Assembly (NCBI RefSeq): GCF_027484545.1
Contig: NZ_JAIXST010000134.1
Location: forward strand, 1-64,000
Length of the DNA: 64,000 bases
Direction: 5' to 3'
DNA from: Runella sp.
GTDB taxonomy: Bacteria > Bacteroidota > Bacteroidia > Cytophagales > Spirosomataceae
A program made the translations under genes and the position numbers. The notes under the pieces are model-generated. The model was given only the letters and a program-made list of their open reading frames with translations. It was not told the DNA's origin and ran no database searches. The stretch's first letter is position 1; each line of letters opens with the position of its first letter. This document shows positions 43,387 through 57,724 of this stretch, in pieces.

Positions 43387-43392
43387 CCCCGT

Positions 43393-44046
43393 TTACTGAA
43401 TGATTACTAATTTGAGTCGGATGGCTTCCACTACCATTCCTACGCGGGTTTTTACTTTCATTTTTTGAAATACGCTTTCGCGGTAGCCATCTACTGTACG
43501 CGGACTTACACACATTTTATCGGCAATATCGGTATAGGTCAAATCACCGTCGCAGGCCCACTTAATAAACTCCATTTCCCGGTCAATGATGCCTAACAGT
43601 TCCTGCGGATTTTGGGGCGTTTCGGGATTGAGATTATTAACCAATTTCTCGGTCACAAATTCATTATAAGAACGCCCTTTCTGCACAACCTCATCCAGCG
43701 CCTGTTTCAATTCGCGAGGTTTACAGCCTTTCAGCAAATAGGCACAGGCACCGTTGCGTAACATTTTTATGACCGATTCCTCCTCGTTGTGCATTGAGAG
43801 TGCCACCACTTTCACTTCGGGATGATTTTTTTTTAGCCAAAGTGCCGTTTCATAGCCATCCATTTCGGGCATTTTGATGTCAAGCAACACGATATCAGGT
43901 ATCATTTTAAGATTGATGCGATTGATCAATTCTTTACCGTTGCCGACTTCGTAAATCACTTCATATTCCTCGTATCTCTGCACCAATCCGGAAAAGGCTT
44001 TAGCCACTAATTCATGGTCGTCAACAATAGCAATGGTGGTTTTCAT
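43393..44046 (-). CDS. NarL/LuxR-type response regulator (second of tandem pair)
   Basis: A 217-residue two-component regulator. Receiver domain at 1-120: acidic pocket IVDDHE, phosphoacceptor Asp56 in LLDIKMPEMDG, ALSMH and the conserved Lys in LLKGCKPRE. The C-terminal LuxR-type helix-turn-helix is at about 150-210 (TYTDIADKMCVSPRTVDGYR). It is very similar to the next gene, over 65 percent by eye, and is probably co-transcribed with it and the kinase-like gene. It is the last gene of that operon. It most likely binds the palindromic sites found upstream of the operons in this region; that is inference. Confidence 0.9.
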   Translation of the reverse strand: MKTTIAIVDDHELVAKAFSGLVQRYEEYEVIYEVGNGKELINRINLKMIPDIVLLDIKMPEMDGYETALWLKKNHPEVKVVALSMHNEEESVIKMLRNGACAYLLKGCKPRELKQALDEVVQKGRSYNEFVTEKLVNNLNPETPQNPQELLGIIDREMEFIKWACDGDLTYTDIADKMCVSPRTVDGYRESVFQKMKVKTRVGMVVEAIRLKLVIIQ

Positions 44047-44055
44047 GACTGTTTT

Positions 44056-44697
44056 TTAATTCAATTTGAGTCGTACTGCTTCCATGGCCAATGTTTGGCG
44101 CGATTTTACATTCATTTTTTGAAAAACACTTTCACGATACCCATCGACAGTACGCGGGCTTACGCACATTTTTTCGGCAATATCGGCGTACGTCAAATCA
44201 CTGCATGCCCATTTTATAAATTCCTTTTCGCGCTCGTTAAGGCGCAAGGCATCCTGCGGATTTTGAAGCGTTTCTGGATTCAGGCTTTTAATCAATTGCC
44301 CGGTTACAAATTCTGTATAATAAAACCCTTTTTGTACAATGGCATCCAAGGCCTGTTTCAATTCAAAAGGTTTACAGCCTTTGAGCAAATAACCCCGTGC
44401 GCCATTGCGCAGCATTCCTACGATAGATTCTTCTTTGTCATTCATAGAAAGCGCCAGCACTTTCACTTCCGGATAATTATTTTTTAGCCAAAGGGCTGTT
44501 TCAAAACCATCCATTTCGGGCATACTGATATCGAGCAGCACTACATCAGGCACCATCTTGAGTTTGATGCGGTTGAGGAGTTCTTTTCCGTTATTTGCTT
44601 CATAGATTACCTCGTAATCTTCGTATTTCTGAACCAACCCCGACAGGGCCTTAGCCATTAGTTCATGGTCGTCAACAATCGCAATCGTAGTTTTCAT
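44056..44697 (-). CDS. NarL/LuxR-type response regulator (first of tandem pair)
   Basis: A 213-residue response regulator, paralogue of its downstream neighbour. The receiver has IVDDHE, Asp56 in LLDISMPEMDG and LLKGCKPFE; the LuxR-type DNA-binding domain has TYADIAEKMCVSPRTVDGYR. Most receiver differences are conservative (Val/Met at 14, Phe/Leu at 18). The two may heterodimerise or respond to different kinases. It lies 34 bases downstream of the kinase-like gene and 9 bases before the second regulator. Confidence 0.9.
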   Translation of the reverse strand: MKTTIAIVDDHELMAKALSGLVQKYEDYEVIYEANNGKELLNRIKLKMVPDVVLLDISMPEMDGFETALWLKNNYPEVKVLALSMNDKEESIVGMLRNGARGYLLKGCKPFELKQALDAIVQKGFYYTEFVTGQLIKSLNPETLQNPQDALRLNEREKEFIKWACSDLTYADIAEKMCVSPRTVDGYRESVFQKMNVKSRQTLAMEAVRLKLN

Positions 44698-44731
44698 AGA
44701 GCCCTGCCTCCTTGGAAGGGAATTTAGGTTT

Positions 44732-45505
44732 TTATACTTTCTTTTCGATGGTCACTTTCGTTCCTCCGTTTATTTTATTTTCAAAGGTACATTTTCCCCC
44801 TATTAATTTAATACGGCGCTGAATATCACGCCATCCAAAATTTTGCAAACTTTCGTCTGCCTCTTCGGGTAACGCCTGTCCATCACTTTCCACCACAATC
44901 TTCAAAGGATCCGACTCATAATTGAGTTTTACCGTAAGGTGACTCACTTTTGCTCTTTTAAAAATAACAGTTACCACTTCCTGTATCACTCTAAACAGCA
45001 CAATTTCTTTTTCATATTCCAAGGGATATGACGTTCCCGTTACCACTAACTCTGTTGTCACGTGGTGATTCCTGCGAAACCGCTGCAGGTATTGGCCGAT
45101 ACAATCCTGCAAATCGAAATCCTGCGCCATGCATCCTTCCAAACGCCGAATCAATCCTCTTAAATCGGTAATGGACTTTCCTACTATGTCGTTGGTTTGT
45201 TGAATAAACGTGCGTTGTTCCTGATTCAATTCCGTTTCTTCCAGCGAATACAGATACATTTTTGCTACCGACAGCATTTGTCCAATATTGTCGTATAATT
45301 CTGACCCCACCCGCTCAAATGCCTGCTTCTGCACCTCTACCTGCGACTCAAGGACTTCCTGTCGATAATTTGCTGTCATTCTCTTACTGTTGTCTTCTTT
45401 TTGGAATTTTTGTCTTTGTCTAACCATGTATTTTACCACCAGGATTTCTATCACTAACATGATAAATCCTACTGCGCACAGCCCTATCCACACTTCTCCG
45501 GTCAT
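44732..45505 (-). CDS. degenerate HisKA_3-type kinase (pseudokinase) of the response-regulator operon
   Basis: A 257-residue protein with one N-terminal membrane helix (about 8-25) and a kinase-like cytoplasmic part. Its H-box reads RVGSELYDNIGQ, with Tyr71 (TAC) where the paralogues have HDNIGQ. The N-box reads VVTVIFKRA, having lost the Asn of LTNILKHA. The G1 box is ESDGQALP instead of DDGKGFD, and the G2 box is NFGWRDIQRR instead of GLRNIQRR. All key ATP-binding and phosphate positions are altered, so it is unlikely to autophosphorylate. It may be an allosteric partner, phosphatase or sensor for the two regulators downstream. The frame is intact, so this is not simple decay. Confidence 0.85.
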   Translation of the reverse strand: MTGEVWIGLCAVGFIMLVIEILVVKYMVRQRQKFQKEDNSKRMTANYRQEVLESQVEVQKQAFERVGSELYDNIGQMLSVAKMYLYSLEETELNQEQRTFIQQTNDIVGKSITDLRGLIRRLEGCMAQDFDLQDCIGQYLQRFRRNHHVTTELVVTGTSYPLEYEKEIVLFRVIQEVVTVIFKRAKVSHLTVKLNYESDPLKIVVESDGQALPEEADESLQNFGWRDIQRRIKLIGGKCTFENKINGGTKVTIEKKV

Positions 45506-45596
45506 GATGTTCTCTTAGTTTTTTAGAATACAATAACGAACAGAAGGCCAGGTGAATGTAATTGCACGAAAGTAGACCAAATGCGGATAGCGCGCA

Positions 45597-45640
45597 ACGG
45601 GAAATTCCCCCTATTTCGGGGGGTGTTTTTACGGTATTTG
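45597..45640 (-). promoter_or_regulatory. operator motif A, upstream of the kinase-like/regulator operon
   Basis: Read leftward: TACCGTAAAAACACC, then an AT-rich link, then AGGGGGAATTTCCCGT. The palindrome is followed 22 bases later by TACTTTCG (complement at 45567-45574), one base off TAnnTTTG. The same motif stands before three other units in this region. Confidence 0.6.
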
Positions 45641-45650
45641 CAAAAAAATA

Positions 45651-45699
45651 GCCCTACCCTACCCTCCGTGCGACGGTCCGACCCACTAAGGGAGGGTGC
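45651..45699. repeat. MITE-like G/C-rich intergenic repeat
   Basis: GCCCTACCCTACCCTCC, then a 23-base link, then GGAGGGT: a 7-bp inverted repeat (45661-45667 and 45691-45697) with the mixed purine/pyrimidine style of repeats seen between Bacteroidota genes. It lies between operator A and the end of the upstream operon. Confidence 0.4.
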
Positions 45700-45726
45700 A
45701 ATTTTGAGAGTATATTTTTACAGTAT

Positions 45727-46533
45727 TTATAGAACAATAGGCAATTGAATCTCTATTTTTGTACCTTGTCCGCGTGCCGTTTCAATTATATAGGTTCCGC
45801 CCACCATTTCAGTACGGCGTTGGATATTTCGCAGGCCGGCACCTGCGTTTTCCATTTTGCGACCTAAAACTGCTTCATTGTCAAATCCTTTGCCATCGTC
45901 CTGCACCGTAAGGCTAAATTGAGCAGGCGTATAGTGGAGTGTTACTTTTATAGTTTTGGCTTCGGCATGTTTGAGTATATTGGTTAGAATTTCCTGTACG
46001 ATCCGAAAAAGCACGAATTCTTTTTGACCGTCCAACCGATACGGCTCGCCTTCCATCAAAATCTCGGTTTGATACTTGCCCGTAGCCCGAATACGTCGCA
46101 AGTCATGCGACAGACTATCTACCAGCCCAAAATCTTTGGCAAAATCGCCGTCCAGGCTTTTACTCAGGCTCCGGACATCCGCAATGGTTTGCTGGAGAAT
46201 CTTACTTGTATCTATAATTTGACTTCTGGTTTTCAAATCCGAAACGTCTTCTTCGAGTATATCCAGATTAATACTCATCACCGACAGCAACTGCCCGATA
46301 TTATCGTGCAGTTCTCGTCCAATTTGCTGTAACGTCTGATTTTGAATTTCGAGCTGTGCCTGAAGAATTTCCTGTTGGTACTGATGTTGAAGAGTTATTT
46401 TTTCCTGACGATGTTCCGATTGGCGTTTTTTGAATAATCCAACGATAATGATAATGAAAAACACTGACATTAAAAGCAAAAAACAAATCGCCATTAATGC
46501 TAACAGTGTTCTATCGTCTATAGAATTCATCAT
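45727..46533 (-). CDS. sensor histidine kinase, HisKA_3/HATPase type, of cassette 1
   Basis: A 268-residue kinase. One membrane helix at about 9-35 with a cytoplasmic coiled-coil linker (about 40-70), then the HisKA_3 dimerisation and phosphoacceptor box IGRELHDNIGQ (His76), the N-box ILTNILKHA, the G1 box DDGKGFD and the G2 box GAGLRNIQRR. There is no extracellular sensory domain, so the signal probably comes through the adjacent membrane protein. It overlaps the end of that gene by 4 bases, so it is translationally coupled to it. It likely phosphorylates one of the NarL-type regulators at 43.4-44.7 kb. Confidence 0.92.
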   Translation of the reverse strand: MMNSIDDRTLLALMAICFLLLMSVFFIIIIVGLFKKRQSEHRQEKITLQHQYQQEILQAQLEIQNQTLQQIGRELHDNIGQLLSVMSINLDILEEDVSDLKTRSQIIDTSKILQQTIADVRSLSKSLDGDFAKDFGLVDSLSHDLRRIRATGKYQTEILMEGEPYRLDGQKEFVLFRIVQEILTNILKHAEAKTIKVTLHYTPAQFSLTVQDDGKGFDNEAVLGRKMENAGAGLRNIQRRTEMVGGTYIIETARGQGTKIEIQLPIVL

Positions 46534-47168
46534 TTATATACTAAATTTTGATGGCAAAAAAAGGCACCGACAAAGGAAGAATAAAGTACATAATTGGTAA
46601 AGCTGCGTACATTGGAAAGCGCTAATGTGATAGGATCATATTGGTTTAATAAATTAAATAACCCCAATCCCACTAAATTAGCATTGAAAATTAACAGGCC
46701 AATGGATATCCAAACTAAAGGATATTCTAAAAATTTATGCTCGTTCACATTTTTCAATAATTCATAGAAATAAAGAAAAATCCAAAGAGTAGTCAATATG
46801 GATTTGGTCATGGAAAGATTGGCACAAAACATCGTTAAAAAAGGCTCCCAATAAATTCCGTTGACAATCGCAAATATCCAAAATAAGAAAATGCTATAGA
46901 GCATAAATCGATACTGCCGCAGCTCCAAATAAAAAGCATACGTTACCAGCGAATATTGAATGGGATTATAGAGATGATAGATATAAACGTTATTCCCAAA
47001 ATTGAATCGAATATAAAGTGCCACCAACTCGCTGATAAACGTATAAACCATTAACCAAAAGAGAACTTTCGTAGGTTTTACTAAACGTTTATAATTGTAT
47101 ATCCCAGCACATACTGCCAATAATTGAATGACGTGGTAGAGAATTGTAGTCCATTTCATAATAATCAC
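46530..47168 (-). CDS. multi-span membrane protein of cassette 1
   Basis: A 212-residue protein with about seven hydrophobic segments (about 6-22, 36-52, 66-82, 90-104, 118-134, 149-171, 185-204), aromatic-rich. The segment GNNVYIYHLYNPIQYSLVTY matches its paralogue at 48635 (SNNLFLYHFFIPFQYITLAL); the pattern NN-x3-YH-x3-P-x-QY is conserved. I do not recognise a named family. Position between the small soluble protein and the kinase suggests a sensor or signal-transfer role. It follows the first gene of the cassette after 60 bases that include a hairpin. Confidence 0.7.
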   Translation of the reverse strand: MIIMKWTTILYHVIQLLAVCAGIYNYKRLVKPTKVLFWLMVYTFISELVALYIRFNFGNNVYIYHLYNPIQYSLVTYAFYLELRQYRFMLYSIFLFWIFAIVNGIYWEPFLTMFCANLSMTKSILTTLWIFLYFYELLKNVNEHKFLEYPLVWISIGLLIFNANLVGLGLFNLLNQYDPITLALSNVRSFTNYVLYSSFVGAFFCHQNLVYK

Positions 47169-47183
47169 CTTTGTTCAACAAAA

Positions 47184-47218
47184 AAGGCATTAATTTCTTA
47201 AAAAGAAAAAAATGCCTT
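47184..47218 (-). terminator. hairpin between first and second gene of cassette 1
   Basis: AAGGCATT and its complement AATGCCTT flank 19 bases, with A/T runs on both sides. It lies inside the operon, after the small-protein stop codon, so it may act as an attenuator or partial terminator that lowers expression of the membrane protein and kinase. Cassette 2 has no gap here at all. Confidence 0.55.
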
Positions 47219-47228
47219 CTCTATTTTT

Positions 47229-47630
47229 TTACAACAACTCACACGGCGGTGGCGGTTTGCAAGGCTCATGCTCATCGGAAAGCAAGTCCGTCGCCGTAGC
47301 GGGGTCACCCGCAGGCGTGCGGCGCAGAATAATTTCCTTTTGGTACATGTTGTTGCCTCGTTCGTCTACTCCCACAAAAATGATTGTGAACGACAATTGT
47401 TCTGGCTGCCCCTCGGGCGCAAGATTTCTAATGCCGGGGTAGGCTCTGACATCTTTACATTCTTTCCCAAACTCGTCCGTTTGAGACAGGATTTTTCTCA
47501 AATCCTGTCCAAGAACAAGCAGATTCTCCCAAAAAAGGGCTTTGATTTCATCCGAAAAATTATCACTGCCGTACTTCTTAAAGGCAGCGTTGTAACTTCT
47601 CGCTTTTTCTCTCGAAATAATTCCTGACAT
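47229..47630 (-). CDS. small protein with Cys/Pro-rich tail (cassette 1)
   Basis: A 133-residue protein without signal peptide or membrane helix. The middle (residues about 60-108) is a beta-rich core with RAYPGIRNLAPEG and FTIIFVGVDERGNNMYQKEI. It ends with EHEPCKPPPPCELL, a Cys/Pro-rich tail echoed by the PCPPANPCP tail of the cassette 2 counterpart. First gene of the operon, with operator B upstream. I do not recognise the family. The tail Cys could bind metal or form disulfides; a partner or signal for the membrane protein is plausible. Confidence 0.6.
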   Translation of the reverse strand: MSGIISREKARSYNAAFKKYGSDNFSDEIKALFWENLLVLGQDLRKILSQTDEFGKECKDVRAYPGIRNLAPEGQPEQLSFTIIFVGVDERGNNMYQKEIILRRTPAGDPATATDLLSDEHEPCKPPPPCELL

Positions 47631-47672
47631 ACTGCATAGGGGTTAAATTGGTAAACAATTCATTTAACTCCA

Positions 47673-47680
47673 CAAAGCTA
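47673..47680 (-). promoter_or_regulatory. -7 element TAGCTTTG of cassette 1
   Basis: Read leftward, TAGCTTTG matches TAnnTTTG and lies 42 bases from the start of the small-protein gene. The nearest part of operator B begins 26 bases upstream of it, the same distance as in cassette 2. Confidence 0.6.
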
Positions 47681-47706
47681 AATATCCTTAATTGCCCATA
47701 AAATGA

Positions 47707-47763
47707 GGAAAACACCCTTTTTGTACCCGAAAAATACGGTAGAAGAAACGGGAAATCTCCCGT
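47707..47763 (-). promoter_or_regulatory. operator motif B, upstream of cassette 1
   Basis: Plus-strand reading: GGAAAACACCCTTTTTGTAC, then CCGAAAAATACGGTA, then GAAGAA, then the palindrome ACGGGAAATCTCCCGT. The order and spacing match site C closely over about 57 bases. A candidate binding site for the NarL-type regulators. Confidence 0.65.
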
Positions 47764-47820
47764 TGTTTTTATGCATTTAAGTACCCAAATAACAGCTTTT
47801 AAGTATTTGCAACTAAATAA

Positions 47821-47856
47821 AGTCTCCCCTTACAGGGGGAGATTTAGTGGGGGTTA
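47821..47856. repeat. G/C-rich MITE-like repeat at the 3' end of cassette 2
   Basis: TCTCCCC, a TTACAG loop, then GGGGAGA, followed by TTTAGTGGGGGTTA that ends at the stop codon of the kinase gene. This form is common between genes in Cytophagales and Flavobacteria genomes (family knowledge) and may act as a terminator. Confidence 0.5.
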
Positions 47857-48654
47857 CAGAGAAGGCAGTTGAATATGCACGCTTGTGCCTTCGTTCTGAG
47901 CGGTTTTGAAGGTACAGGTTCCGCCCAGCATTTCAGTACGGCGTTGGATATTGCGCAGCCCCACGCCCGACTTACTCATCTCCCGGCCCAAGACCGCTTC
48001 GTAATCAAAGCCTTTGCCATCGTCCTGCACGGTAAGGCTAAAGTGAGCAGGTGTAAATTGAAGGGAGACTTTGATGTATTTGGCCTTGGCGTGTTTGAGA
48101 ATATTACTCAAAATTTCCTGTACCACTCGGAAAAGCACGATTTCTTTTTGCCCGTCCAACTGATATGCCTCACCCTCAATCAAAATATCGGTTTCGTACT
48201 TACCCGTAAAAGCAATACGCTGCAACAAATGCTTCAAACTATCTACCAACCCAAAATTCTTCACAAAATCGCCGTCCAGACTTTTGCTCAAACCACGCAG
48301 TTCATCAATCGTTTTTCCTACTACCTCATTCACTTCCTCAATTTGCTTGGGTGTAATTGTTTCTTCTATCTCCAACATATTCAATTTAAACCGCACCAAC
48401 GTCATCAATTGCCCGATGTTATCATGCAACTCCCCGCTGATGTGCTGTAAGGTTTGGTTTTGTATTTCGAGTTGGACTTGGAGGATTTCTTGCTGATGTT
48501 GGGCGTGGAGGGTGGCTTTTTCTTGACGGTTTTGGAGTTGGCGGCGTTGATAAACAAACACAAATGAAATCATAAAACCAATCACGACTACCAATGATAG
48601 CAAACCTAAAATTAAAACAATGGATATGTCTATATCAAAGGACATGTCGTTCAT
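47854..48654 (-). CDS. sensor histidine kinase, HisKA_3/HATPase type, of cassette 2
   Basis: A 266-residue kinase paralogous to the cassette 1 kinase. One membrane helix (about 11-35), then ISGELHDNIGQ (His77) as H-box, the N-box ILSNILKHA, the G1 box DDGKGFD and the G2 box GVGLRNIQRR. All catalytic positions are intact. It overlaps the end of the membrane-protein gene by 20 bases. With no periplasmic domain, the signal probably comes from the preceding membrane protein. Partner regulators are probably the tandem pair at 43.4-44.7 kb, since no other response regulator is in the window. Confidence 0.92.
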   Translation of the reverse strand: MNDMSFDIDISIVLILGLLSLVVVIGFMISFVFVYQRRQLQNRQEKATLHAQHQQEILQVQLEIQNQTLQHISGELHDNIGQLMTLVRFKLNMLEIEETITPKQIEEVNEVVGKTIDELRGLSKSLDGDFVKNFGLVDSLKHLLQRIAFTGKYETDILIEGEAYQLDGQKEIVLFRVVQEILSNILKHAKAKYIKVSLQFTPAHFSLTVQDDGKGFDYEAVLGREMSKSGVGLRNIQRRTEMLGGTCTFKTAQNEGTSVHIQLPSL

Positions 48655-49300
48655 CTGTACGAGGCCAGCTATTATTTCGGTATTTCAGAATCGGAAAGAG
48701 GCAGAATAAGTAAAAAGCCACATCAAACCATAAAACAATATAAATCCAAAAATTAGCTAACTGATGATGGTCTATGATTAAATAACGCATTAATCCCATT
48801 TGGAAAAAACTGACAAAATATATCAAAATACCAGAAGACACCCAAAAGGCGGGTATCTTACTAAGGACTTCGACTTTGTTTGCTCTTATCAGTTGTTGCA
48901 AGTATATAAGCGACCATATCAGAAGTAGTATCCGTGTAAGTAAGAGTATATAAAATGGCATTTCTTTTAGACTTTGAACAAAACCACTAAATATAATGGC
49001 ACAAGCAATTACCAAAAAAATGCTGTAATTGATGCTTCCTTTGACAGTAGGAGTATGTATGCTTTCTCTCAAAAAAAGAGCCAAAGTAATGTACTGAAAT
49101 GGAATGAAAAAATGATAAAGGAAAAGGTTGTTACTCCTAAAAGCAGTCATGTAATAGTCTGCGTTTACTTCGAGCAAAAAAGTAACGATAAAAAAATAAA
49201 GCAAAAACTTAGCATATCGGGGAAGCCGATCGTATTGCCATATACCTACGACTACCCCGATAAATAAAATTGCTAATATGAGCCACTCAACAGGTGTCAT
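48635..49300 (-). CDS. multi-span membrane protein of cassette 2
   Basis: A 221-residue protein with about seven hydrophobic segments and the conserved SNNLFLYHFFIPFQY stretch (about 55-70) shared with the cassette 1 protein. The C-terminus is polar and basic (KYRNNSWPRTDERHVL), likely cytoplasmic. I know no family name. It overlaps its upstream neighbour by 4 bases and its downstream kinase by 20 bases, so the three products are made together; it is a likely sensor. Confidence 0.7.
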   Translation of the reverse strand: MTPVEWLILAILFIGVVVGIWQYDRLPRYAKFLLYFFIVTFLLEVNADYYMTAFRSNNLFLYHFFIPFQYITLALFLRESIHTPTVKGSINYSIFLVIACAIIFSGFVQSLKEMPFYILLLTRILLLIWSLIYLQQLIRANKVEVLSKIPAFWVSSGILIYFVSFFQMGLMRYLIIDHHQLANFWIYIVLWFDVAFYLFCLFPILKYRNNSWPRTDERHVL

Positions 49301-49872
49301 TTATGGGCAAAGTTGATAGTATTATTGAAATTGGCAGTAGTCATAATGGCCGTAACCACGGTTTGGGCTGGGCAAGGATTGGCGGGTGGGCAAGGAGTAG
49401 GTTCTTCGCAGAAAAGAATCGTATCTCTTTTTCCCTGTACTTCTATTAAGTCTTGCATATCTTTGCCGACAGGTGTTATGGTGATTCCAATGCCAGGCAC
49501 TGTTTCGGTTTGTGGGGAATTGGGCGGTGACTCATGCCCATTGGTGAGATATAAATATTCTTTTACGCCCAAATTGATCGCTATTCCGTAGCAATCGCTC
49601 CCTTGTGCTAAAAGCCGTAACAATATATCTTTATGAATATGAAATCGTAGAAAAACCCCTTTTAGGTCGTTTGGCTGAGGCATACGGCCAGTAGTGGTTT
49701 GGATAGATGGAGCAACGAATGTATCAAAAAATTGAGCAGCCTCTGTATCAAGCAATGGTGCATTAACAGTTTGGGGAGCCATGACTGTTTCATTGCCCCA
49801 ATTTGCTTGGCGATTTGAGGGAGGGAATACTCCTGGAGCATCGTTTTCGAGGTAGATTTTTTCGTAAGCCAT
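49297..49872 (-). CDS. small protein with Cys/Pro-rich tail (cassette 2)
   Basis: A 191-residue soluble protein with no signal peptide. Residues about 70-150 include GVFLRFHIHKDILLRLLAQ and DCYGIAINLGVKEYLYL, with a Ser/Pro-rich loop. The C-terminal part carries DTILFCEEPTPCPPANPCP, a Cys/Pro-rich tail like that of the cassette 1 protein, then a short Thr/Asn-rich end. It is the first gene of cassette 2 with operator C upstream. No family is recognised. Similarity to the cassette 1 protein is limited to position and tail style, so homology is uncertain. Confidence 0.6.
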   Translation of the reverse strand: MAYEKIYLENDAPGVFPPSNRQANWGNETVMAPQTVNAPLLDTEAAQFFDTFVAPSIQTTTGRMPQPNDLKGVFLRFHIHKDILLRLLAQGSDCYGIAINLGVKEYLYLTNGHESPPNSPQTETVPGIGITITPVGKDMQDLIEVQGKRDTILFCEEPTPCPPANPCPAQTVVTAIMTTANFNNTINFAHK

Positions 49873-49929
49873 TTTGAAAAGAATTAAATGTAAGATAATG
49901 ATTTATTGTGAACCGAGAGTAATTCTACA

Positions 49930-49937
49930 CAAAGGTC
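49930..49937 (-). promoter_or_regulatory. -7-like element GACCTTTG of cassette 2
   Basis: Read leftward, GACCTTTG keeps the TTTG half of TAnnTTTG. The identical octamer serves as the candidate -7 element of the PKD lipoprotein gene (53573). The operator begins 26 bases away (GGAAAAATACCC at 49964), as in cassette 1. The loss of TA fits a promoter that depends on an activator. Confidence 0.5.
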
Positions 49938-49960
49938 GGTCTAAATGTATTACGGACACA

Positions 49961-50023
49961 ACGGGAAAAATACCCTTTTTATACGGGAAAAATACGGTAT
50001 CAAATACGGGGAATTTCCCCTGT
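49961..50023. promoter_or_regulatory. operator motif C between divergent units
   Basis: ACGGGAAAAATACCC, TTTTTA, then TACGGGAAAAATACGGTATC, AAATAC, then the palindrome GGGGAATTTCCCC and CTGT. It lies between cassette 2 (leftward) and the coiled-coil gene (rightward), so it can serve both. On the right, AATATTTG (50044) starts 36 bases after the first G of the palindrome. Confidence 0.7.
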
Positions 50024-50095
50024 AAAATCTCGGATCAAAGTGCAATATTTGCGCAATTGTTATAAATTTCTCTTCATTCAACCTTATATAGCCTT

Positions 50096-51532
50096 ATGAA
50101 AGTCCTTTTATTATCCTTTCTAACGTTATTATGCTCATTTTTCTACTCCAAAGGTTTTGGACAAGCAAAGGGAGGAGTAGATACTTTGGTAATTGAAATT
50201 GATAAGGTAACAGAATTCCCCAAACGCCCTTTTCCTTTTGACATGCCCTTTATTTTGAAGAAGGAATATCCTTCATCGGACACAAATATGAAAATTTTGA
50301 AAGTAGAAATGATTAACCTAAAACATGAAAATAAAGCAAACAGAATAAATAAAAGATTAGAAAAGCTCAGAAAATCAAATGAAGATTCGGTAAATAAGAC
50401 AAAATTGACCTTAAAATTGCTCCAAGCTGAAGATAACAATTCAAAAAAAGCTAATTATGAAGATAAACTGAATCGGCAAACTCAGGAAGCAACGAAAACA
50501 TATAGTCAAGTTATGGATGAGCTGAATATTGAAAATCTCCCTGATACTGCTGCGCTACAAAAAAAAATAAAGAGAAAGTTTAAGAGGTTAAAAATTATAG
50601 AATCATGTGCTTACAAAGTTGAAAAAAATGTATTATATATCTATGTGCCTGAATTAAGGCCAAATAGGTTCTATGATTTTAGAATAGTAAAACAGTACAA
50701 TAAACCATTACTCGATGAAACTTATAAGATGTTTGAAGCGGTACACGAAGCATATAAAAACCCTTATGATAAAGAAAAGCATTTTGAAGAAGCAAAAAAA
50801 AGATTTGCCAATATAAATTACTATAAAAACTCACAAAGAGATCCATCTTCGTTGCTCGACAATCTTTGGAGGCGTACATTAACTATGTACAACGACCTTG
50901 CTCTTCAACCATTAAAATTCCAAGAAGATATTTATCAATCTGTGGCGGTTTCAAATATATTTATCTCTAATTTAACTGCAAATAATTCCCAGCAAAAGAC
51001 TATAAAGCAGGACTTGCAATTAATGATTAATTCGCAATCTCCTATTGAAAGATTTTATGAAATTTCTTTAAGAAATCATTTTGACGCCATTGATAATAAT
51101 GAACCAAAAGCAACTTTGGTTAAAAGTAATCTTAAATATTTAGAACAAAAGAAAAAAGAAATTACTGACAAACTTAACCTGATTGAGAAAAAAAATGCTT
51201 TTAAAATAGCAATAGATAGTAGTCAACTAAGGTATACTTTTAAAGAGCAATTTGACAACAACTATTTAACAGATTTAAAAAAAGAAGAACTCAACATTAT
51301 TGAAAAAAACTTAAAAATTGAAAAAGAAAGTATATTAAATAAAATAGCTAAAAATCACATATATAACAAAGACAACCCAATGGTGAACATTGATATTAAT
51401 ATTAATTTTATATCAGAAGAATTATTGGCAAACAGTACTCGACCAGCAAGGAATTCAAATAACATTTCCAGTGTCCCTCAAAACAATTTTAGCAACTTAT
51501 TTACTACTAATATATTTAATTTTAATACTTGA
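50096..51532 (+). CDS. exported coiled-coil protein, N-terminal part of an interrupted gene
   Basis: A 478-residue product with signal peptide (1-23, ending FGQA), a Lys/Glu-rich helical body with likely coiled coils (about 75-160 and 330-420), and no known domain. It ends at TGA 51530. The same frame then continues without any stop for 147 codons that read like an outer membrane beta-barrel end, so the natural product was probably about 626 residues. The TGA may be a nonsense mutation, a sequencing error, or a real stop. The body has very low G+C and high Lys/Asn compared with neighbours. Operator C stands upstream. Confidence 0.7.
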   Translation: MKVLLLSFLTLLCSFFYSKGFGQAKGGVDTLVIEIDKVTEFPKRPFPFDMPFILKKEYPSSDTNMKILKVEMINLKHENKANRINKRLEKLRKSNEDSVNKTKLTLKLLQAEDNNSKKANYEDKLNRQTQEATKTYSQVMDELNIENLPDTAALQKKIKRKFKRLKIIESCAYKVEKNVLYIYVPELRPNRFYDFRIVKQYNKPLLDETYKMFEAVHEAYKNPYDKEKHFEEAKKRFANINYYKNSQRDPSSLLDNLWRRTLTMYNDLALQPLKFQEDIYQSVAVSNIFISNLTANNSQQKTIKQDLQLMINSQSPIERFYEISLRNHFDAIDNNEPKATLVKSNLKYLEQKKKEITDKLNLIEKKNAFKIAIDSSQLRYTFKEQFDNNYLTDLKKEELNIIEKNLKIEKESILNKIAKNHIYNKDNPMVNIDININFISEELLANSTRPARNSNNISSVPQNNFSNLFTTNIFNFNT

Positions 51533-51976
51533 AATTTTTATGGAATTATTGCAGATTTTGGATACTGTTATTATGTACCAATAGCAGAAAAACCGTTTGA
51601 AAAAGCTGGGTTTACACCTTATATTGGATTCAATATTGAATTGAGACAATTTAATAGAGATATTCCTTTACGACTCATAAAGAATAAGAATTTTTGGAAC
51701 AGATGGTCTATATCAACAGGAATTACCCTTCAATCCATTGCAAAGACAGGAGTAAGAAGCAATCTGTTTGGCAATAATAACTTGATGATAGGTGTAGGTT
51801 ATAAATTGACCAATGCATTCCGACTTAAATTATCGGGAGTTATCTACAATCAAGAATTTCCTAACTACATATCCTCCAGTAAAAAGCTTACAATATTGCC
51901 AACTGTAAGTTTCTCATTGGACTTAAGTATAAAAAGGTTAATCGGAGATATTCAAAGCGTATTTAAATTTCCATGA
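51533..51976 (+). pseudogene. C-terminal barrel part separated by an in-frame TGA
   Basis: Directly after the TGA, in the same frame, the sequence reads NFYGIIADFGYCYYVPIAEK and continues through GFTPYIGFNIELRQF, WSISTGITLQSIA and LMIGVGYKLTNAFRLKLSG to SVFKFP. Alternating strands and the aromatic ending are like a small outer membrane barrel. A TTG at 51641 could start an 111-residue product, but it would lack a signal peptide. The stop overlaps the next gene's ATG by 4 bases (ATGA), a sign that this part was translated in coupling with that gene until recently. Confidence 0.6.
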
Positions 51977-53013
51977 AAAAATCCCTACCACCACTTTTCC
52001 TACTCGGAATTAGTTTCTTGTTTAGCACTTGCCAAGAGATAGAACCTGCTTGTGATTTTAATATTCAAAGTAATCAAACCTCCATCAAAGCTGACGGTGA
52101 AAGCACCATAAATGTATATGTTAATCTTCCTGACAACACTTCTGAAAATACTGAAGTTAAGTTCAGAACCACTCATGGTTTTTTTGACGGTGCTGCAACG
52201 GCCACACCCAAAGAAGTAAGCCGAAAAGTAGTCCAAGTTAATGAAAATGGCGTTTTACGGAAGAAAGCCTGGGCGTTGTTGAAGAGCGGCACAGAGCCTG
52301 TAGATACAGTAAAGGTAACGGCTTGGATAGAAAGCAAATGCGAAGACTCTGAGAGTTTTAAGTTTATTTATGATAGTCCTCCAGCCATTACCCTGATTCC
52401 TCCATCTGACTCCATTTTAGCAGATGGAGAATCTACGACATCAATAACAGCAGAAATTCCACTTAATACATCTACTCCTCGCTCAACAATTACATTTCGC
52501 ACCGATAAAGGAGTTTTTGAAGCAACTAATTCCGCGACTATTACTCAGACGGCGCAGATAGTTAATGGTAAGAAGCAGGCAAAAATAACTTTTAAAAGCC
52601 CTTTAAGTGTTGGGATAGCCAAAATAAAAGCGTCCATTTTAAGTTCTGAAAAAGAAATGGAAATTAAGCTCAAGAACGCGCCGCCCGATAAGATTAAAAT
52701 AAAAACTGATAAAATTTTGATTCAAAAATTGGAAGATATTGTAACTTTTACCGTAGAATTGAAAAGAAATAGCGGAAAACCATCTATTGGAAATAAAGTG
52801 ACTTTAACTGTGACAGATGAACAAAATAATAGAGAATACACAAACAATTTTCTTGAAAGAAATGAAGAAAGTGACGCAAATGCCTTATGTACTTTTAAGT
52901 TCAGTCTTATAGAGAAACTTGACCCTACAGTTAAACAATTGAAGGTGATAGCCAAATCTAATGCTTTGGGCGTTGCAGATGATTCTATAATTATCTCGGT
53001 CAAAATATTGTAA
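51973..53013 (+). CDS. lipoprotein with Ig-like (invasin/Big_1-type) domains
   Basis: A 346-residue lipoprotein; the signal peptide ends in FLFSTC (Cys about 20). Three Ig-like domains of about 100 residues follow. The first two start ADGEST and have the Big_1-like pattern PLNTSTPRSTITFRTDKGVF; the third is more divergent (about 240-346). Such domains hold adhesins or structural surface proteins away from the membrane. It overlaps the preceding gene by 4 bases. It shares the FLFSTC signal style with the PKD lipoprotein downstream. The ligand is unknown. Confidence 0.75.
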   Translation: MKKSLPPLFLLGISFLFSTCQEIEPACDFNIQSNQTSIKADGESTINVYVNLPDNTSENTEVKFRTTHGFFDGAATATPKEVSRKVVQVNENGVLRKKAWALLKSGTEPVDTVKVTAWIESKCEDSESFKFIYDSPPAITLIPPSDSILADGESTTSITAEIPLNTSTPRSTITFRTDKGVFEATNSATITQTAQIVNGKKQAKITFKSPLSVGIAKIKASILSSEKEMEIKLKNAPPDKIKIKTDKILIQKLEDIVTFTVELKRNSGKPSIGNKVTLTVTDEQNNREYTNNFLERNEESDANALCTFKFSLIEKLDPTVKQLKVIAKSNALGVADDSIIISVKIL

Positions 53014-53080
53014 TCACTAATTTACATTTTCAACGCAGGATTATGAATGAAGCCTTCATAACCCTACCAACTTTCCACCT

Positions 53081-53213
53081 AATCCCCTTATCTTTGCGGT
53101 TCAAAAAACCGAATAGAATGATTTCAGTAGATAACGTAACTGTGGAGTTTGGGGGGCGGACTTTGTCTAATGATGTCACTTTCAATAGCAACGAAAAAGA
53201 TAGAATCTGCTAA
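53081..53213 (+). pseudogene. ABC-F gene promoter and start, truncated copy 1
   Basis: A copy of the intact ABC-F gene start at 56055-56175. It keeps the exact -7 element TATCTTTG (53089), then ATG 53118 and the codons MISVDNVTVEFGG and NEKDRI, before an in-frame TAA at 53211. That is 31 codons instead of 546. It has differences not shared with the intact gene (Thr-Leu-Ser-Asn for Ala-Leu-Phe-Ser). A short peptide could still be made, but the fragment cannot fold as an ATPase. Confidence 0.85.
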
Positions 53214-53225
53214 GAGGATATTTAT

Positions 53226-53402
53226 TCATCTTATAGAAAAATCAAAGTTAGTCAGGCCAATCTCTTTTCTGCTCTGAATGGTTACAAATTCAGCAGAATC
53301 AGTACTTCTTTTAGGCACAAGAGCTGTAAAATACGGAATACGGTCGGCTATAACTTCGCCAGCCACTCCACATTGATTTTCTGAAAATAATTCAAGAGCC
53401 AT
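53226..53402 (-). CDS. possible 58-residue protein
   Basis: An uninterrupted reading frame (starting MALELFSENQCGVAGEVIAD and ending TNFDFSIR) lies between the truncated ABC-F copy and operator D, opposite in strand. I recognise no family. The residue mix looks like real protein rather than random translation, but with only 58 residues this is weak. It could be the remnant of a longer gene. No promoter is clear. Confidence 0.25.
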   Translation of the reverse strand: MALELFSENQCGVAGEVIADRIPYFTALVPKRSTDSAEFVTIQSRKEIGLTNFDFSIR

Positions 53403-53420
53403 TTAACTGTTAATCTTTTG

Positions 53421-53550
53421 GTACGGAAAAATACGGTACCATGAGGGGAAATTGCCCGTATTTTCTGTAAACAGGTACGTAAATCAATACGGGAAATCTC
53501 CCATGACAAATACGGGAAAAGTACGGTATCCAATAGGGGAATTTGCCCGT
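53421..53550 (+). promoter_or_regulatory. operator motif D (two full sites and one half site)
   Basis: Site D1 (53421-53460): TACGGAAAAATACGGTACC, ATGA, then GGGGAAATTGCCCGTA. Half site (53489-53502): ACGGGAAATCTCCC. Site D2 (53511-53550): TACGGGAAAAGTACGGTATC, CAATA, then GGGGAATTTGCCCGT. D2 is 22 bases upstream of the GACCTTTG element. This is the densest cluster of the motif in the window and serves the PKD lipoprotein gene. Confidence 0.7.
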
Positions 53551-53572
53551 GGCGAAGATGGAAAAGTAGAAA

Positions 53573-53580
53573 GACCTTTG
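53573..53580 (+). promoter_or_regulatory. -7-like element GACCTTTG of the PKD lipoprotein gene
   Basis: Identical to the cassette 2 element and 22 bases after the end of operator site D2. ATG 53633 follows 52 bases later. Confidence 0.5.
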
Positions 53581-53632
53581 TAACAACTAAAAAACCAGGT
53601 CTATTGTACTAATTTTTAACACATCCAAATGT

Positions 53633-55015
53633 ATGAAAACTTCGCTGCTTCACCTTCAGAATAACGCATTGTTATTAATAGTGGCTTTTCTTTTCAGCAC
53701 CTGCAAAGAAAAAGAGCCAGTAGCTTTACCCAAAGCCAATTTTGAGTTTTTTCCCAACACCAATTTGGTAGCACCCGTAAAAATTACCTTTACAAATACA
53801 TCCCAAAATGCTACAGGCTACTTGTGGGAAACAAGTGATGGGCAAACATCGATTTACAAAGACATAACTTATACGATTAACAGTGGCGGCAAGTATAGTA
53901 TGAAACTTACTGCAACAGGTGAAGGAGGAACTGATACTTATTCACGTTCTTTCGTAGTAGCTGATGCACCAAGTTTACAGCCCATTGCTGGCTTTACTTA
54001 TTCGCCCGCCAACAACTTAACAGCTCCCGTTAAAGTTACCTTTAGCAACAGTTCTAAAAATGCGGACAGCTATAAGTGGGATTTTGGCGATGGAACAACC
54101 TCGACCGAGGCAAATCCAACAAAAGAATTTACCAAAGCAGGCACTTTCAAAGTAAAACTAACCGCATTTGCCAAAACAAGTTCGTCAGAGAGCACGGCTG
54201 ACATCACAGTTAATGCGACAGTTGCAACGACTCCCACTGCCGACTTTACCTATTCTCCAAGCAGTAATTTAACAGCACCTGCAAACATTACCTTTACAAA
54301 CACCTCAAAAAATGCGAACACTTATAAATGGGATTTTGGGGATGGAACGACCTCTACTACTGCAAGCCCCACCAAAGAGTTTACTAAAGCGGGCGATTTC
54401 ACAGTAAAACTTACTGCTACTGATTCTAAAAACCAATCCGCTCAAAAAACAGTAACTATCTCAGTAAAAGCCGCGGCAGTGTTGCCCGTTGCCGATTGGA
54501 CTTGGAAGGCAAGCAATTTGAAAGTAACATTTACGAACACCTCAAAAAATGCTAACAGTTATAAGTGGAATTTTGGCGATGGAAATACTTCTACCGCTTC
54601 AAGCCCTACCTATGAATACGCCAAAGCAGGTACTTACACGGCCACGCTTACCGCCAGTGATGGTAAGAACCAAGATCAAGATTCAAAATTGGTAACTATA
54701 ACTGCCCCTATTGTACCTACTTGTGATTGGGCTACTTATAGTACAGCAACAGCAATAAAAGTTGAAACCAGATGGGGAGACTGTGGAGCAGATGGATTAG
54801 GTATAAAAATAACCAATCTAACTAAAATCAAGTTAGAAGCTTATTGGTGTTTTAAAAAGAAAGATGGCACATGGAGTTGTGAAGCCTCTTCTATAGCTGC
54901 TGGGAGTTATCATTCAACATGGAGTTGTAAAAATACGGGCGATGTTAAAGTATGGGCAATGTCTGCGGATGAATTCAAAAAGAATAACTGCGGCTATTCA
55001 TCCTTGAAACCATAA
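53633..55015 (+). CDS. lipoprotein with four PKD repeats and a Cys-rich C-terminal domain
   Basis: A 460-residue surface lipoprotein (signal peptide ending FLFSTC, Cys about 23). Four PKD-like domains of about 80-85 residues follow. Repeats 2 and 3 are nearly identical (SYKWDFGDGTTSTEANPTKE and TYKWDFGDGTTSTTASPTKE) and repeats 1 and 4 are more divergent. The last 100 residues form a separate Cys-rich domain (CDWATYSTATAIKVETRWGD, then EAYWCFKKKDGTWSC and STWSCKNTG). PKD domains act as surface spacers or carbohydrate or protein binders. Expression is probably controlled by operator D. It is cargo between two ABC-F fragments. Confidence 0.85.
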   Translation: MKTSLLHLQNNALLLIVAFLFSTCKEKEPVALPKANFEFFPNTNLVAPVKITFTNTSQNATGYLWETSDGQTSIYKDITYTINSGGKYSMKLTATGEGGTDTYSRSFVVADAPSLQPIAGFTYSPANNLTAPVKVTFSNSSKNADSYKWDFGDGTTSTEANPTKEFTKAGTFKVKLTAFAKTSSSESTADITVNATVATTPTADFTYSPSSNLTAPANITFTNTSKNANTYKWDFGDGTTSTTASPTKEFTKAGDFTVKLTATDSKNQSAQKTVTISVKAAAVLPVADWTWKASNLKVTFTNTSKNANSYKWNFGDGNTSTASSPTYEYAKAGTYTATLTASDGKNQDQDSKLVTITAPIVPTCDWATYSTATAIKVETRWGDCGADGLGIKITNLTKIKLEAYWCFKKKDGTWSCEASSIAAGSYHSTWSCKNTGDVKVWAMSADEFKKNNCGYSSLKP

Positions 55016-55049
55016 ACTAAGTCGTTGCTTTACAAAGAAAACACCCTGA

Positions 55050-55202
55050 ATAAAGCGTTTATAACGCTACTGATAATCCTCATCTTCGCACTTCACAAAA
55101 GGAACTTGAATGATTTCGGTAGATAATGGATCAGTGGAGTTCGGCGGACGAGCTTTGTTTAGTGATGTCACTTTCAATAGCAACGAAAAAGATAGAATCG
55201 CG
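55050..55202 (+). pseudogene. ABC-F gene promoter and start, truncated copy 2
   Basis: Shares about 150 bases with the start of the intact gene: the leader GAATAAAGCGTTTATAAC, a decayed -7 element CATCTTCG, CACAAAAGGAACTTGA, then ATG 55110 and MISVDNGSVEFGGRALFSDV to DRIA. After base 55202 the sequence is unrelated and the frame runs to TAG at 55364. It shares Asn-Ser-Asn (53 kb copy) and Asn-Gly-Ser (copy 3) differences, which points to stepwise copying. Confidence 0.85.
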
Positions 55203-55253
55203 ATGATTTTTGTAAATATCTCTTGTTTTTTGATAGGTATTTACAAAAATCAT
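55203..55253. repeat. 16-bp perfect inverted repeat at the break of copy 2
   Basis: ATGATTTTTGTAAATA and its exact complement flank a 19-base spacer. It starts exactly where homology to the ABC-F gene ends. It could be the trace of a small palindromic element or a terminator-like hairpin that stops transcription from the truncated copy. Confidence 0.6.
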
Positions 55254-55269
55254 TTTACATACCTCCCCC

Positions 55270-55390
55270 AGTTTGCGTTTGCAACTGGGGAGTTCCAATG
55301 TACTCCTCTGAATAAATCGTTTATAAAGCTACCGGCAATCTTACTCTTTACAAAAGCAACTTGAATGATTTCGGCAGATAATGGATCAGT
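55270..55390 (+). pseudogene. ABC-F gene promoter and start, truncated copy 3
   Basis: The leader AGTTTGCGTTTGCAAC, also present before the intact gene (55990), TGAATAAATCGTTTATAA, a decayed -7 element, CAAAAGCAACTTGA and ATG 55365 are followed by only ten codons (MISADNGSVP) before TAA. Homology ends at 55390, where the 3' end of the Uma2 gene begins. The Uma2 stop codon (TGA, complement at 55386-55388) lies inside this fragment. Confidence 0.8.
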
Positions 55391-55931
55391 TCCATAAATC
55401 AGCGGCGGGGATTTCAAAGTCATCTAAGACAGGGCGGGCAGAGCAGATATCTGCGTCAGTACACACGGTTATGTGCTTGAGGGAGGTATAAACTTCCACC
55501 ATTTCGTAATCGGGGTAAATCAGCCATGCTACCCGGATTCCATTTTTGAAATATTCGATGATTTTCCGCTTTACTTCGTTGATTTGGTCGGTGGAAGAAA
55601 TAACTTCTATGACAAACTCGGGGATTTGCTCTTCTGTTTTGCTGTTGATAATTTGCTCTCTGCTAAAATAGGCCAAATCAGGACGCCTCAATTGAATACC
55701 TGTCAGCATTACGTCTTGCTCACAAAGGAGTTGTCCCCTGAGCTTTTTGGCAGCGGTTTTATCAAAGAGTTCGTTTAATATACTGATTAGGTACAAATGT
55801 TTGTTTTTCATTCCTTCAAACTTTATCAATTCGCCGTCATTCCATTCATACTTATAGCCGTCGTTAGGCTCCCAACGCTCAAACTCCGCCAAGGTTTGCG
55901 GCAACAAGCTATTTTTTATTTCGTTCGCCAT
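55386..55931 (-). CDS. Uma2 family endonuclease-like protein
   Basis: A 181-residue protein of the Uma2/DUF820 family, which has a PD-(D/E)XK nuclease fold. Key positions: YKYEWNDGELIKFEGM (about 27-42), LLCEQDVMLTG, RRPDLAYFSRE (catalytic Asp) and EFVIEVISSTDQINEVKRKI (ExK-like Glu and Lys). Nuclease activity and target are not proven for this family; many are associated with mobile or accessory DNA. The 3' end is joined to ABC-F copy 3, so its last two or three codons come from that fragment. It is cargo of the insertion cluster. Confidence 0.85.
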   Translation of the reverse strand: MANEIKNSLLPQTLAEFERWEPNDGYKYEWNDGELIKFEGMKNKHLYLISILNELFDKTAAKKLRGQLLCEQDVMLTGIQLRRPDLAYFSREQIINSKTEEQIPEFVIEVISSTDQINEVKRKIIEYFKNGIRVAWLIYPDYEMVEVYTSLKHITVCTDADICSARPVLDDFEIPAADLWN

Positions 55932-56054
55932 AGTGTTGAAACAGTTTTGTCAAAGATACAAAAAAACCTAAATCGTATGAACTCCTGTTAGTTTGCGTTT
56001 GCAACGGGGACGCCCCGATACGAACTCTTGAATGAAGCGTTTACTGATAATCCT

Positions 56055-56062
56055 TATCTTTG
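56055..56062 (+). promoter_or_regulatory. -7 element TATCTTTG of the ABC-F gene
   Basis: Exact TAnnTTTG match 22 bases before the ABC-F ATG. The same element is intact in truncated copy 1 and decayed in copies 2 and 3. Confidence 0.65.
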
Positions 56063-56083
56063 CGGTTCACAAAAGGAACTTGA

Positions 56084-57724
56084 ATGATTTCGGTAGATAA
56101 CGTAACAGTGGAGTTCGGCGGACGAGCTTTGTTTAGTGATGTCACTTTCAACATCAACGAAAAAGATAGAATCGCCCTCATGGGCAAAAATGGAGCTGGG
56201 AAATCTACCCTGCTCAAAATCATAGCGGGAGCCGATAAACCCACGCGCGGCAAAATCTCCGCTCCCAACGAGGCCGTGATTGCCTACCTGCCTCAGCACC
56301 TGCTGACCAAAGATGATTCCACAGTTTTTGAGGAAACCTCTAAGGCGTTTGCCGAGGTATTGGACATGAAAAAAGAACTGGATGAACTGAATCATCAGTT
56401 GGAAACACGCACCGACTACGAATCGGACGCCTACATGACCATCATTGAGCGCGTATCGGAACTAAGCGAAAAGTACTACTCGACCGAGGAAGTCAATTAT
56501 GATGCGGAAGTCGAAAAAACGCTGTTGGGCTTGGGTTTCCTACGGAGCGATTTTGACCGTAAAACAGGAGAGTTCAGCGGGGGCTGGCGGATGCGGATCG
56601 AGTTGGCCAAAATTCTGTTGAAAACACCCGATTTGATTTTGTTGGATGAGCCTACCAATCACTTGGATATTGAGTCGATTCAGTGGTTGGAGGAGTTTTT
56701 GGTCAATACTGCTAAGGCAGTGATTGTCATCTCACACGACCGGGCGTTTGTGGACAATATCACCAACCGGACCATCGAAATCACGATGGGGCGCATCTAT
56801 GATTATAAGGTCAACTATTCGCAATACCTGCAACTGCGCAAAGAACGCCACGAACAGCAGCAAAAGCAGTTTACCGATCAGCAGAAAATGATTGCTGAAG
56901 TCACGGAGTTTATTGATCGTTTCAAAGGGACGTACTCAAAAACCTTGCAGGTGCAGTCGCGGGTAAAAATGCTGGAGAAATTGGACATTGTAGAAGTGGA
57001 CGAAGTGGACACCTCGGCGCTGAATATTAAATTCCCACCTGCCCCGCGCTCGGGCAACTACCCCGTGATTGTGGAACAACTGAGCAAAAGCTACGGCGAC
57101 CATTTGGTGTTCAAAGATGCGGGCATGACGATCGAACGCGGGCAAAAGGTAGCGTTTGTCGGTAAAAATGGCGAAGGTAAATCTACGCTTGTGAAAGCCA
57201 TCATGGGCGAGATTGACTACGAAGGCGAAATGAAGCTGGGGCACAACTCCATGATTGGCTATTTTGCGCAGAATCAAGCGGCTTTATTGGATGGTGATTT
57301 AACCGTTTTCCAAACCATTGACAACATTGCCGTAGGCGACATTCGTACCAAAATCAAGGATCTGTTGGGAGCATTCATGTTCAGCGGCGACAGTATTAAT
57401 AAGAAAGTAAATATGCTGTCGGGTGGAGAGCGCACCCGTTTGGCAATGATCAAACTATTGTTGGAACCCGTCAACTTATTGATACTCGATGAGCCCACCA
57501 ACCACCTCGACCTTAAAACAAAAGACATTCTGAAAGATGCTTTGAAAGCCTTTGAAGGAACCATCATTTTGATTTCTCACGATCGGGATTTCTTAGATGG
57601 ATTGGCCGAAAAAGTGTTTGAATTCGGAAATAAGCGCGTCAAAGAACACTTTGAAGACATCAACGGTTTTCTGCGAAACAAAAAACTGGAAAATCTGCGC
57701 GAGATTGAGCGAAAAGGAAAATAG
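56084..57724 (+). CDS. ABC-F family ATP-binding protein (intact gene)
   Basis: A 546-residue soluble twin-ATPase. Domain 1: GKNGAGKSTLLK (Walker A), FSGGWRMR (signature), LILLDEPTNHLD (Walker B). A linker of charged helices (about 240-310) acts on the ribosome in the family. Domain 2: GKNGEGKSTLVK, LSGGERTR, LILDEPTNHLD. ABC-F proteins bind the ribosomal E site and relieve stalled translation or protect from antibiotics. It resembles the YbiT/EttA branch more than resistance factors, but this cannot be fixed by eye. Its promoter and first about 30 codons are copied three times upstream. Confidence 0.93.
   Translation: MISVDNVTVEFGGRALFSDVTFNINEKDRIALMGKNGAGKSTLLKIIAGADKPTRGKISAPNEAVIAYLPQHLLTKDDSTVFEETSKAFAEVLDMKKELDELNHQLETRTDYESDAYMTIIERVSELSEKYYSTEEVNYDAEVEKTLLGLGFLRSDFDRKTGEFSGGWRMRIELAKILLKTPDLILLDEPTNHLDIESIQWLEEFLVNTAKAVIVISHDRAFVDNITNRTIEITMGRIYDYKVNYSQYLQLRKERHEQQQKQFTDQQKMIAEVTEFIDRFKGTYSKTLQVQSRVKMLEKLDIVEVDEVDTSALNIKFPPAPRSGNYPVIVEQLSKSYGDHLVFKDAGMTIERGQKVAFVGKNGEGKSTLVKAIMGEIDYEGEMKLGHNSMIGYFAQNQAALLDGDLTVFQTIDNIAVGDIRTKIKDLLGAFMFSGDSINKKVNMLSGGERTRLAMIKLLLEPVNLLILDEPTNHLDLKTKDILKDALKAFEGTIILISHDRDFLDGLAEKVFEFGNKRVKEHFEDINGFLRNKKLENLREIERKGK

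Follow-up and report, generated by a model that had tools for sequence, protein, structure and literature searches.

Truncated ABC-F gene starts in Runella are probable scars of cassettes imported by recombination anchored in the gene

In a draft genome of Runella sp. (G000), an intact ABC-F ATPase gene is preceded by three truncated copies of its own start, with other genes lying between them. We examined this locus in a window of 64,000 nucleotides (contig NZ_JAIXST010000134.1, positions 1 to 64,000) and compared it with 12 other Runella genomes (G001–G012) and with individual loci given L numbers. The intact gene (56084..57724, plus strand) contains two ABC_tran stretches recognised by Pfam, follows its leader and promoter on the same strand (55990..56083), and encodes a protein 96–97% identical to those of G011, G009, G012 and G003. 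Between the host and other Runella, few windows of the gene are as well conserved as its first 120 bp (56084–56203). Copy 1 (53080..53207, plus strand) carries the promoter, leader and codons 1–30 at 86% identity to the intact start, and a weaker leader likeness to copy 2 begins just upstream at 53044. Copy 2 (55047..55201, plus strand) carries the leader and codons 1–30 plus two bases, at 88% identity with an 8-bp gap, and its promoter appears decayed when judged by eye. Copy 3 (55270..55390, plus strand) consists of an upstream 16-mer, the leader and codons 1–8 plus two bases, at 75% identity. Read in the intact frame, copy 1 runs through the last base of codon 30, and copies 2 and 3 break off after the second base of codon 31 and of codon 9, respectively.

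Each interval holds different cargo. Between copies 1 and 2 lie a 58-residue open reading frame (ORF; 53226..53402, minus strand), which has no Pfam match and no assigned family, and a gene for a lipoprotein-like protein with PKD domains (53633..55015, plus strand; Pfam PKD_4 and PKD; lipoprotein call by eye). Repeats of the TACGGG..CCCGTA type at 53420–53570, ahead of the PKD gene, are perhaps an operator of the neighbouring two-component system. Copy 2 is followed by an inverted repeat, TTGTAAATATCT..TATTTACAA (55203..55253, no strand), with arms 95% complementary. Between copy 3 and the intact gene lies a Uma2 gene (PF05685; 55386..55931, minus strand; Pfam E = 2.5e-23; PADLOC PDC-S03), which is flanked by direct repeats on both sides and has its stop codon inside the end of copy 3. 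A further Uma2 gene on the same contig, 25 kb away (G000:C136:80821-81339) and 65% identical to the first, has no flanking repeats.

The first-pass annotation had described three truncated ABC-F starts from the sequence alone, and these proved real and on the same strand, with extents, identities and shared changes largely as given there. Searching G000 with the intact leader and start returned four places at E ≤ 0.001, namely the intact start and the three copies (copy 2, 2e-52; copy 1, 6e-35; copy 3, 2e-8), and nowhere else. The copies differ from each other, which makes assembly duplicates unlikely. As first noted, copies 1 and 2 have AATAGC in common where the intact gene has AACATC, and copies 2 and 3 have AATGGATC where it has AACGTAAC; the intact ABC-F starts of all nine aligned Runella relatives carry the intact-type letters at both sites. 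Two copies had also been said to share a leader 16-mer, AGTTTGCGTTTGCAAC, with the intact gene; copy 3 does, a second copy does not. We located this 16-mer twice in G000 and not once in the 12 other Runella genomes searched, so we discarded the idea of a dispersed repeat, there being only two exact copies across 13 genomes. The ends of copies 1 and 2 lie no more than two bases apart; these copies also have their private two-base change in common and are identical over their last 37 bases. Because of that change and those 37 bases, they probably derive from one scar rather than from independent events. A fixed crossover near codon 30 was accordingly rejected, since the remaining scar ends differ and these two do not count separately.

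A partial ABC-F start was also found in a second Runella species, G003, answering the earlier suggestion to look for one in other genomes. There, downstream of a truncated ABC-F start (124 bp, 87%, ending at codon 22 to 23), come two palindromes, a lone ATPase_2 gene and then the intact ABC-F gene. In the genus search, which matched the start in 10 of 13 Runella genomes, extra copies appeared only in G000 (three) and G003 (one). Among 93 ABC-F loci with at least 700 bp upstream, a set that excludes the window and counts some genomes twice (7 of 100 loci had less than 700 bp), only G003 carried an upstream fragment of its own ABC-F start; L146 showed a 23-bp match downstream. The annotation had proposed integration at a fixed site. 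Scars ending at codons 30, 31, 9 and 22 to 23 give this no support, as the junctions do not all coincide.

The G003 locus also offers a reading of the inverted repeat in the window. The repeat after copy 2 aligns with the palindrome just before the G003 ATPase_2 gene (0 of 2,000 shuffles as good), and no ATPase-like ORF is left beside 55203..55253 in the window. From this alignment, the repeat is probably the orphaned operator of a lost ATPase_2 gene. The G003 scar and copy 2 were also considered as one and the same event; the stretch from scar to palindrome gave no clear match (95 of 2,000 shuffles as good), and the idea was dropped. Between the histidine kinase cluster and ABC-F, gene sets vary among the Runella relatives with enough upstream sequence (it is short in G008, at 1.2 kb, and in G001, at 2.9 kb). 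Some families recur there by eye, including a block in G001, G004 and G010 with relatives in G011. Several secreted or lipoprotein-like genes, again by eye, occupy window positions 43000–53000 and the counterparts, and the region resembles a fast-changing regulated locus.

Direct repeats around lone Uma2 and ATPase_2 genes extend beyond ABC-F. Tight long direct repeats (52–150 bp) flank 6 of 44 evaluable Runella loci, comprising 3 of 17 ATPase_2 and 3 of 27 Uma2 loci, compared with 3 of 1,217 other ORFs from 89 sources, mostly of other genera (Fisher P = 1e-7). As the two ABC-F loci prompted the test, we also give the count without them (4 of 42; P = 3e-5). Evaluable loci were 17 of 19 for ATPase_2 (without L191, with an 11-bp flank, and L195, a remnant) and 27 of 30 for Uma2 (without L150, L168 and L173, with short flanks; six of 36 matches gave no locus). 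At two loci the repeat is the ABC-F start. At the other four it is a gene end: that of a 23S ribosomal RNA methyltransferase-like gene, here called rumA (L181), of an AraC-type gene (L186), of a TrmH-type gene (L151), these three named by eye from sequence, and of a gene for a 304-residue protein (L167). By eye, several ATPase_2 loci among L178, L184, L186, L187, L190, L193 and L194 have their own upstream palindromic or repeated motifs, which differ in sequence from gene to gene.

Outside Runella the pattern did not clearly recur. Across 33 loci (10 ATPase_2, 23 Uma2), the 31 with both flanks of at least 400 bp showed no clear gene-terminus repeat. L250 and L262 pass the tight repeat test, but with operator-like palindromes and a terminator-like hairpin. 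Weaker repeats occur at L247, L264 and L277, of which those at L247 (27 bp) and L277 (39 bp, 79%) touch ORF starts and may be candidate cases. A repeat rule for the Uma2 and ATPase_2 families at large was dropped after these loci of other genera. At L250, an ATPase_2 gene has similar 46–47 bp palindromes (83–85% alike) on either side.

Nor are the scars confined to Uma2 and ATPase_2 within Runella, as a survey of 1.2 Mb of G003 (976 ORFs) revealed. Its first screen left 17 of 19 nearby repeat pairs outside a single ORF, several of them paralogues, dispersed repeats or terminator-like. The second yielded nine low-copy gene-to-intergenic pairs, five of which are same-strand gene termini around cargo: the hsdR start beside a three-gene set, the TrmH end (26 bp short of the stop) beside Uma2, the AraC end beside ATPase_2, the purL end beside a 5-kb exporter islet, and the end of a 475-residue protein gene beside a 6.2-kb TonB islet. 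The remaining four comprise two from one terminator-like repeat, one intra-ORF pair and one on opposite strands. With three more G003 genes scarred beside other cargo, scar specificity for Uma2 and ATPase_2 was abandoned. All eleven scars are gene starts or ends, of 46–150 bp, in eight unrelated target genes. PADLOC matched the three-gene set, Uma2 and ATPase_2 to three families of the PDC series of phage-defence candidates (PDC-S27, PDC-S03 and PDC-M64, of which PDC-S03 is that of Uma2), with the purL and 475-residue islets outside the scan. Among the cargo seen there was no restriction-modification system. Nor was there any integrase family in the 20 proteins scanned, which include two anchor genes and some neighbours and cover part of the cargo (from the purL and 475-residue islets, all but three smaller ORFs).

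Relatives with a single copy and no cassette were found at three of the four sites away from ABC-F (L167, L181 and L186). At the L167 Uma2 gene, G008 and G006 align on both flanks with one copy, giving a clean empty site and a 52-bp duplication. The ATPase sites L181 and L186 have empty one-copy counterparts in G002 and in G007, respectively, the right flank of the latter aligned over about 105 bp. The L151 Uma2 case is looser: G004 aligns the TrmH gene and a stretch past the scar without Uma2, and G001 carries TrmH and Uma2 but no scar. Partial rumA-end copies also occur in G006, within about 50 bp of the gene, and elsewhere in G000, which has a partial TrmH-end copy elsewhere as well. Loose partial gene-end copies (methyltransferase, TrmH) lie at L339 (2012–2149), L340 (1983–2065) and L341 (1883–1984), with no Uma2 or ATPase_2 ORF recognised alongside in the fetched stretches.

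We then asked of the paired copies whether they resemble an exact duplicate or two alleles. Under neutral decay of one copy after exact duplication, about 60% of coding differences are expected to be non-synonymous. The L181 rumA pair differs at 15 synonymous and 2 non-synonymous positions (P = 6e-5 for such decay). Across the seven coding pairs away from ABC-F, the synonymous to non-synonymous counts are 15:2, 4:1, 1:2, 2:1, 3:0, 2:1 and 4:1, pooling to 31:8 (P = 6e-7), or 16:6 without L181 (P = 0.002). Given their variable ends and mostly synonymous differences, the copies away from ABC-F look like two alleles, and import of a second allele is well supported at rumA and in the pooled pairs. 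At ABC-F, such import is only suggested. In the G003 leader, at three sites near the start codon, the scar goes with G009 and G012, the intact gene with G011.

In aggregate, we consider it probable, at roughly 60%, that cassettes entered by recombination anchored in the ABC-F gene and left the truncated starts behind as scars. The incoming DNA would consist of a cassette attached to the gene start as the donor has it. By homologous recombination within the gene, the resident gene would then acquire the donor start, and its own former start would be stranded across the cassette. This could proceed by one crossover of a linear fragment after it has recircularised, or through homology-facilitated illegitimate recombination with the joint inside the anchor. 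Uptake of free DNA is the presumed route, and excerpts of one report describe Runella in mixed culture taking up a free plasmid (PMC10257627). In the window, an ATPase_2 cassette may have come first at the ABC-F start, leaving a scar to about codon 30, comparable to that of G003 with its different end. PKD cargo anchored in that first scar would have produced copies 1 and 2 with the same end, Uma2 at the intact start would have left copy 3, and the ATPase gene would later have been lost while its operator stayed. The intact ABC-F gene is, on this account, the anchor rebuilt at each event. Homology-anchored import, the best reading, accounts for the variable scar length, the involvement of starts and ends alike, the mixed cargo, the rebuilt genes and the allelic copies. 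It retains the core of the first-pass annotation: stepwise, repeated cargo insertion that each time leaves an intact start downstream and rebuilds the gene is supported, as are cargo that differs between species and scars of the same type at other genes, seen in the flanking-repeat loci and the G003 survey.

Several observations weigh against this interpretation. The three-base change that copies 2 and 3 have in common is absent from the intact gene, which requires either that one scar converted another or that the intact start was reset later. The ABC-F pairs lack a synonymous excess (copy 1, 7:4 over codons 1–30; copy 2, 2:3; copy 3, 2:3; G003 scar, 3:4), as does the trmH pair (1:2), so decay of an exact duplication could explain these. 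In G003, leader site −37 groups the scar and the intact gene the opposite way, and most differences between the two are private to one copy (9 scar-private and 6 intact-private sites). ABC-F has no clean empty site, its flanks being too variable among relatives, and no clear donor tract stands out in identity along the gene, either in the window or in G003. Finally, alignment of the right flank stops at the repeat for L151 and for most relatives of L181 and L186.

Could Uma2 and ATPase_2 instead be single-gene elements that insert themselves with 50–150 bp target duplications, later decay of one copy producing the scars? Both families are enriched for flanking repeats, L167 offers a clean empty site with a 52-bp duplication, and Pfam annotates Uma2 as a putative restriction endonuclease. 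An older name of Uma2 is DUF820. A paper on the PD-(D/E)XK nuclease superfamily mentions DUF820 (PMC1913061). We nonetheless regard self-insertion as unlikely, because a toxin-antitoxin-like cassette, a peptide exporter islet and a TonB islet are equally scarred without either gene, differences between the repeats are largely synonymous both at L181 and across the pooled pairs, repeat length varies, and the 31 evaluable loci outside Runella gave no clear gene-terminus repeat. We found no paper pairing Uma2 with target site duplication in a search that left most subscription journals outside, and nothing on mobility in the titles or abstract openings among the matches listed for Uma2 endonucleases, DUF820 and DUF234. 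Also unlikely is the extended version, in which lone Uma2 (of a nuclease family) and ATPase_2 genes would be minimal self-acting mobile genes at gene termini, their scars serving as landing sites for later cargo; if true, defence genes would accumulate at such termini.

That unequal crossing over first duplicated the ABC-F start in tandem, and unrelated insertions brought the cargo later, seems quite improbable. It would suit the direct order of the copies and their pairwise common changes, which call for exchange between copies, as well as the G006 rumA-end copy, too close to its gene for cargo unless cargo was lost. The empty sites at L167, L181 and L186, however, indicate that cassette and repeat arrive together, and their association recurs at other genes. 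Site-specific integrase islands that rebuild their target gene, as the annotation had envisaged, are very improbable, for although the targets are gene termini and the gene is intact each time, the scanned proteins contain no integrase family, and the short scars lie at gene ends too, vary in where they end and fall in eight unrelated genes.

Read as traces of homology-anchored import, truncated gene ends beside small islets would form a readable record of gene entry without a visible integrase. The record is countable in Runella, with five same-strand gene-terminus scars in 1.2 Mb of G003, and it provides a simple screen for recently imported, possibly phage-defence, cassettes. How such genes move thereby becomes a testable question in a genus reported to take up free DNA.

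Among known systems, SXT-type elements at prfC are large conjugative elements that use an integrase and a fixed site, and their insertion at the gene start keeps the gene whole. The Runella insertions likewise keep the gene whole at its start, but show neither an integrase in the proteins scanned nor a fixed site. What comes closest to them is recombination in which the flanking gene supplies the homology, rather than an SXT-like island that brings an integrase along. In Escherichia coli, according to excerpts of PMC3240628, part of the anchor gene was duplicated in 56 of 60 clones by polymerase chain reaction, over 109–950 bp in the 14 sequenced, which was ascribed to a single crossover of recircularised linear DNA; classical homology-facilitated illegitimate recombination is there said usually to delete resident DNA. 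As in that case, the foreign DNA in Runella is joined to part of a gene, with partial duplication of that part; unlike that laboratory conjugation, the Runella events are reconstructed from genomes and their repeats span 46–150 bp. Homology-facilitated illegitimate recombination is also what the authors suggest for the type VI effector-immunity arrays of Vibrio cholerae (excerpts of PMC5361080). The successive insertions anchored in a conserved region, with remnants in the array, are similar, whereas those remnants are immunity genes and the Runella remnants are truncated gene starts without evident use. The closest known system is Helicobacter pylori insertion with long target duplication (Nobusato and others 2000, via PMC1643837 and PMC3154945). 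In the excerpts of these two sources, genes lying between long direct copies of the target were identified by comparing strains and interpreted as one way in which genes move, with a frequent link to restriction-modification genes. In Runella, too, long direct target repeats bound the cargo, and relatives at L167, L181 and L186 have a single copy and no cargo. In contrast to H. pylori as excerpted, the cargo comprises Uma2, ATPase_2, a toxin-antitoxin-like set, an exporter and lipoprotein/TonB genes, a gene terminus forms the repeat in each of the eleven scars, one gene carries a stack of three, and some copies are allele-like. Beyond the H. pylori type, the Runella cases therefore widen the cargo, show stacking and point to alleles.

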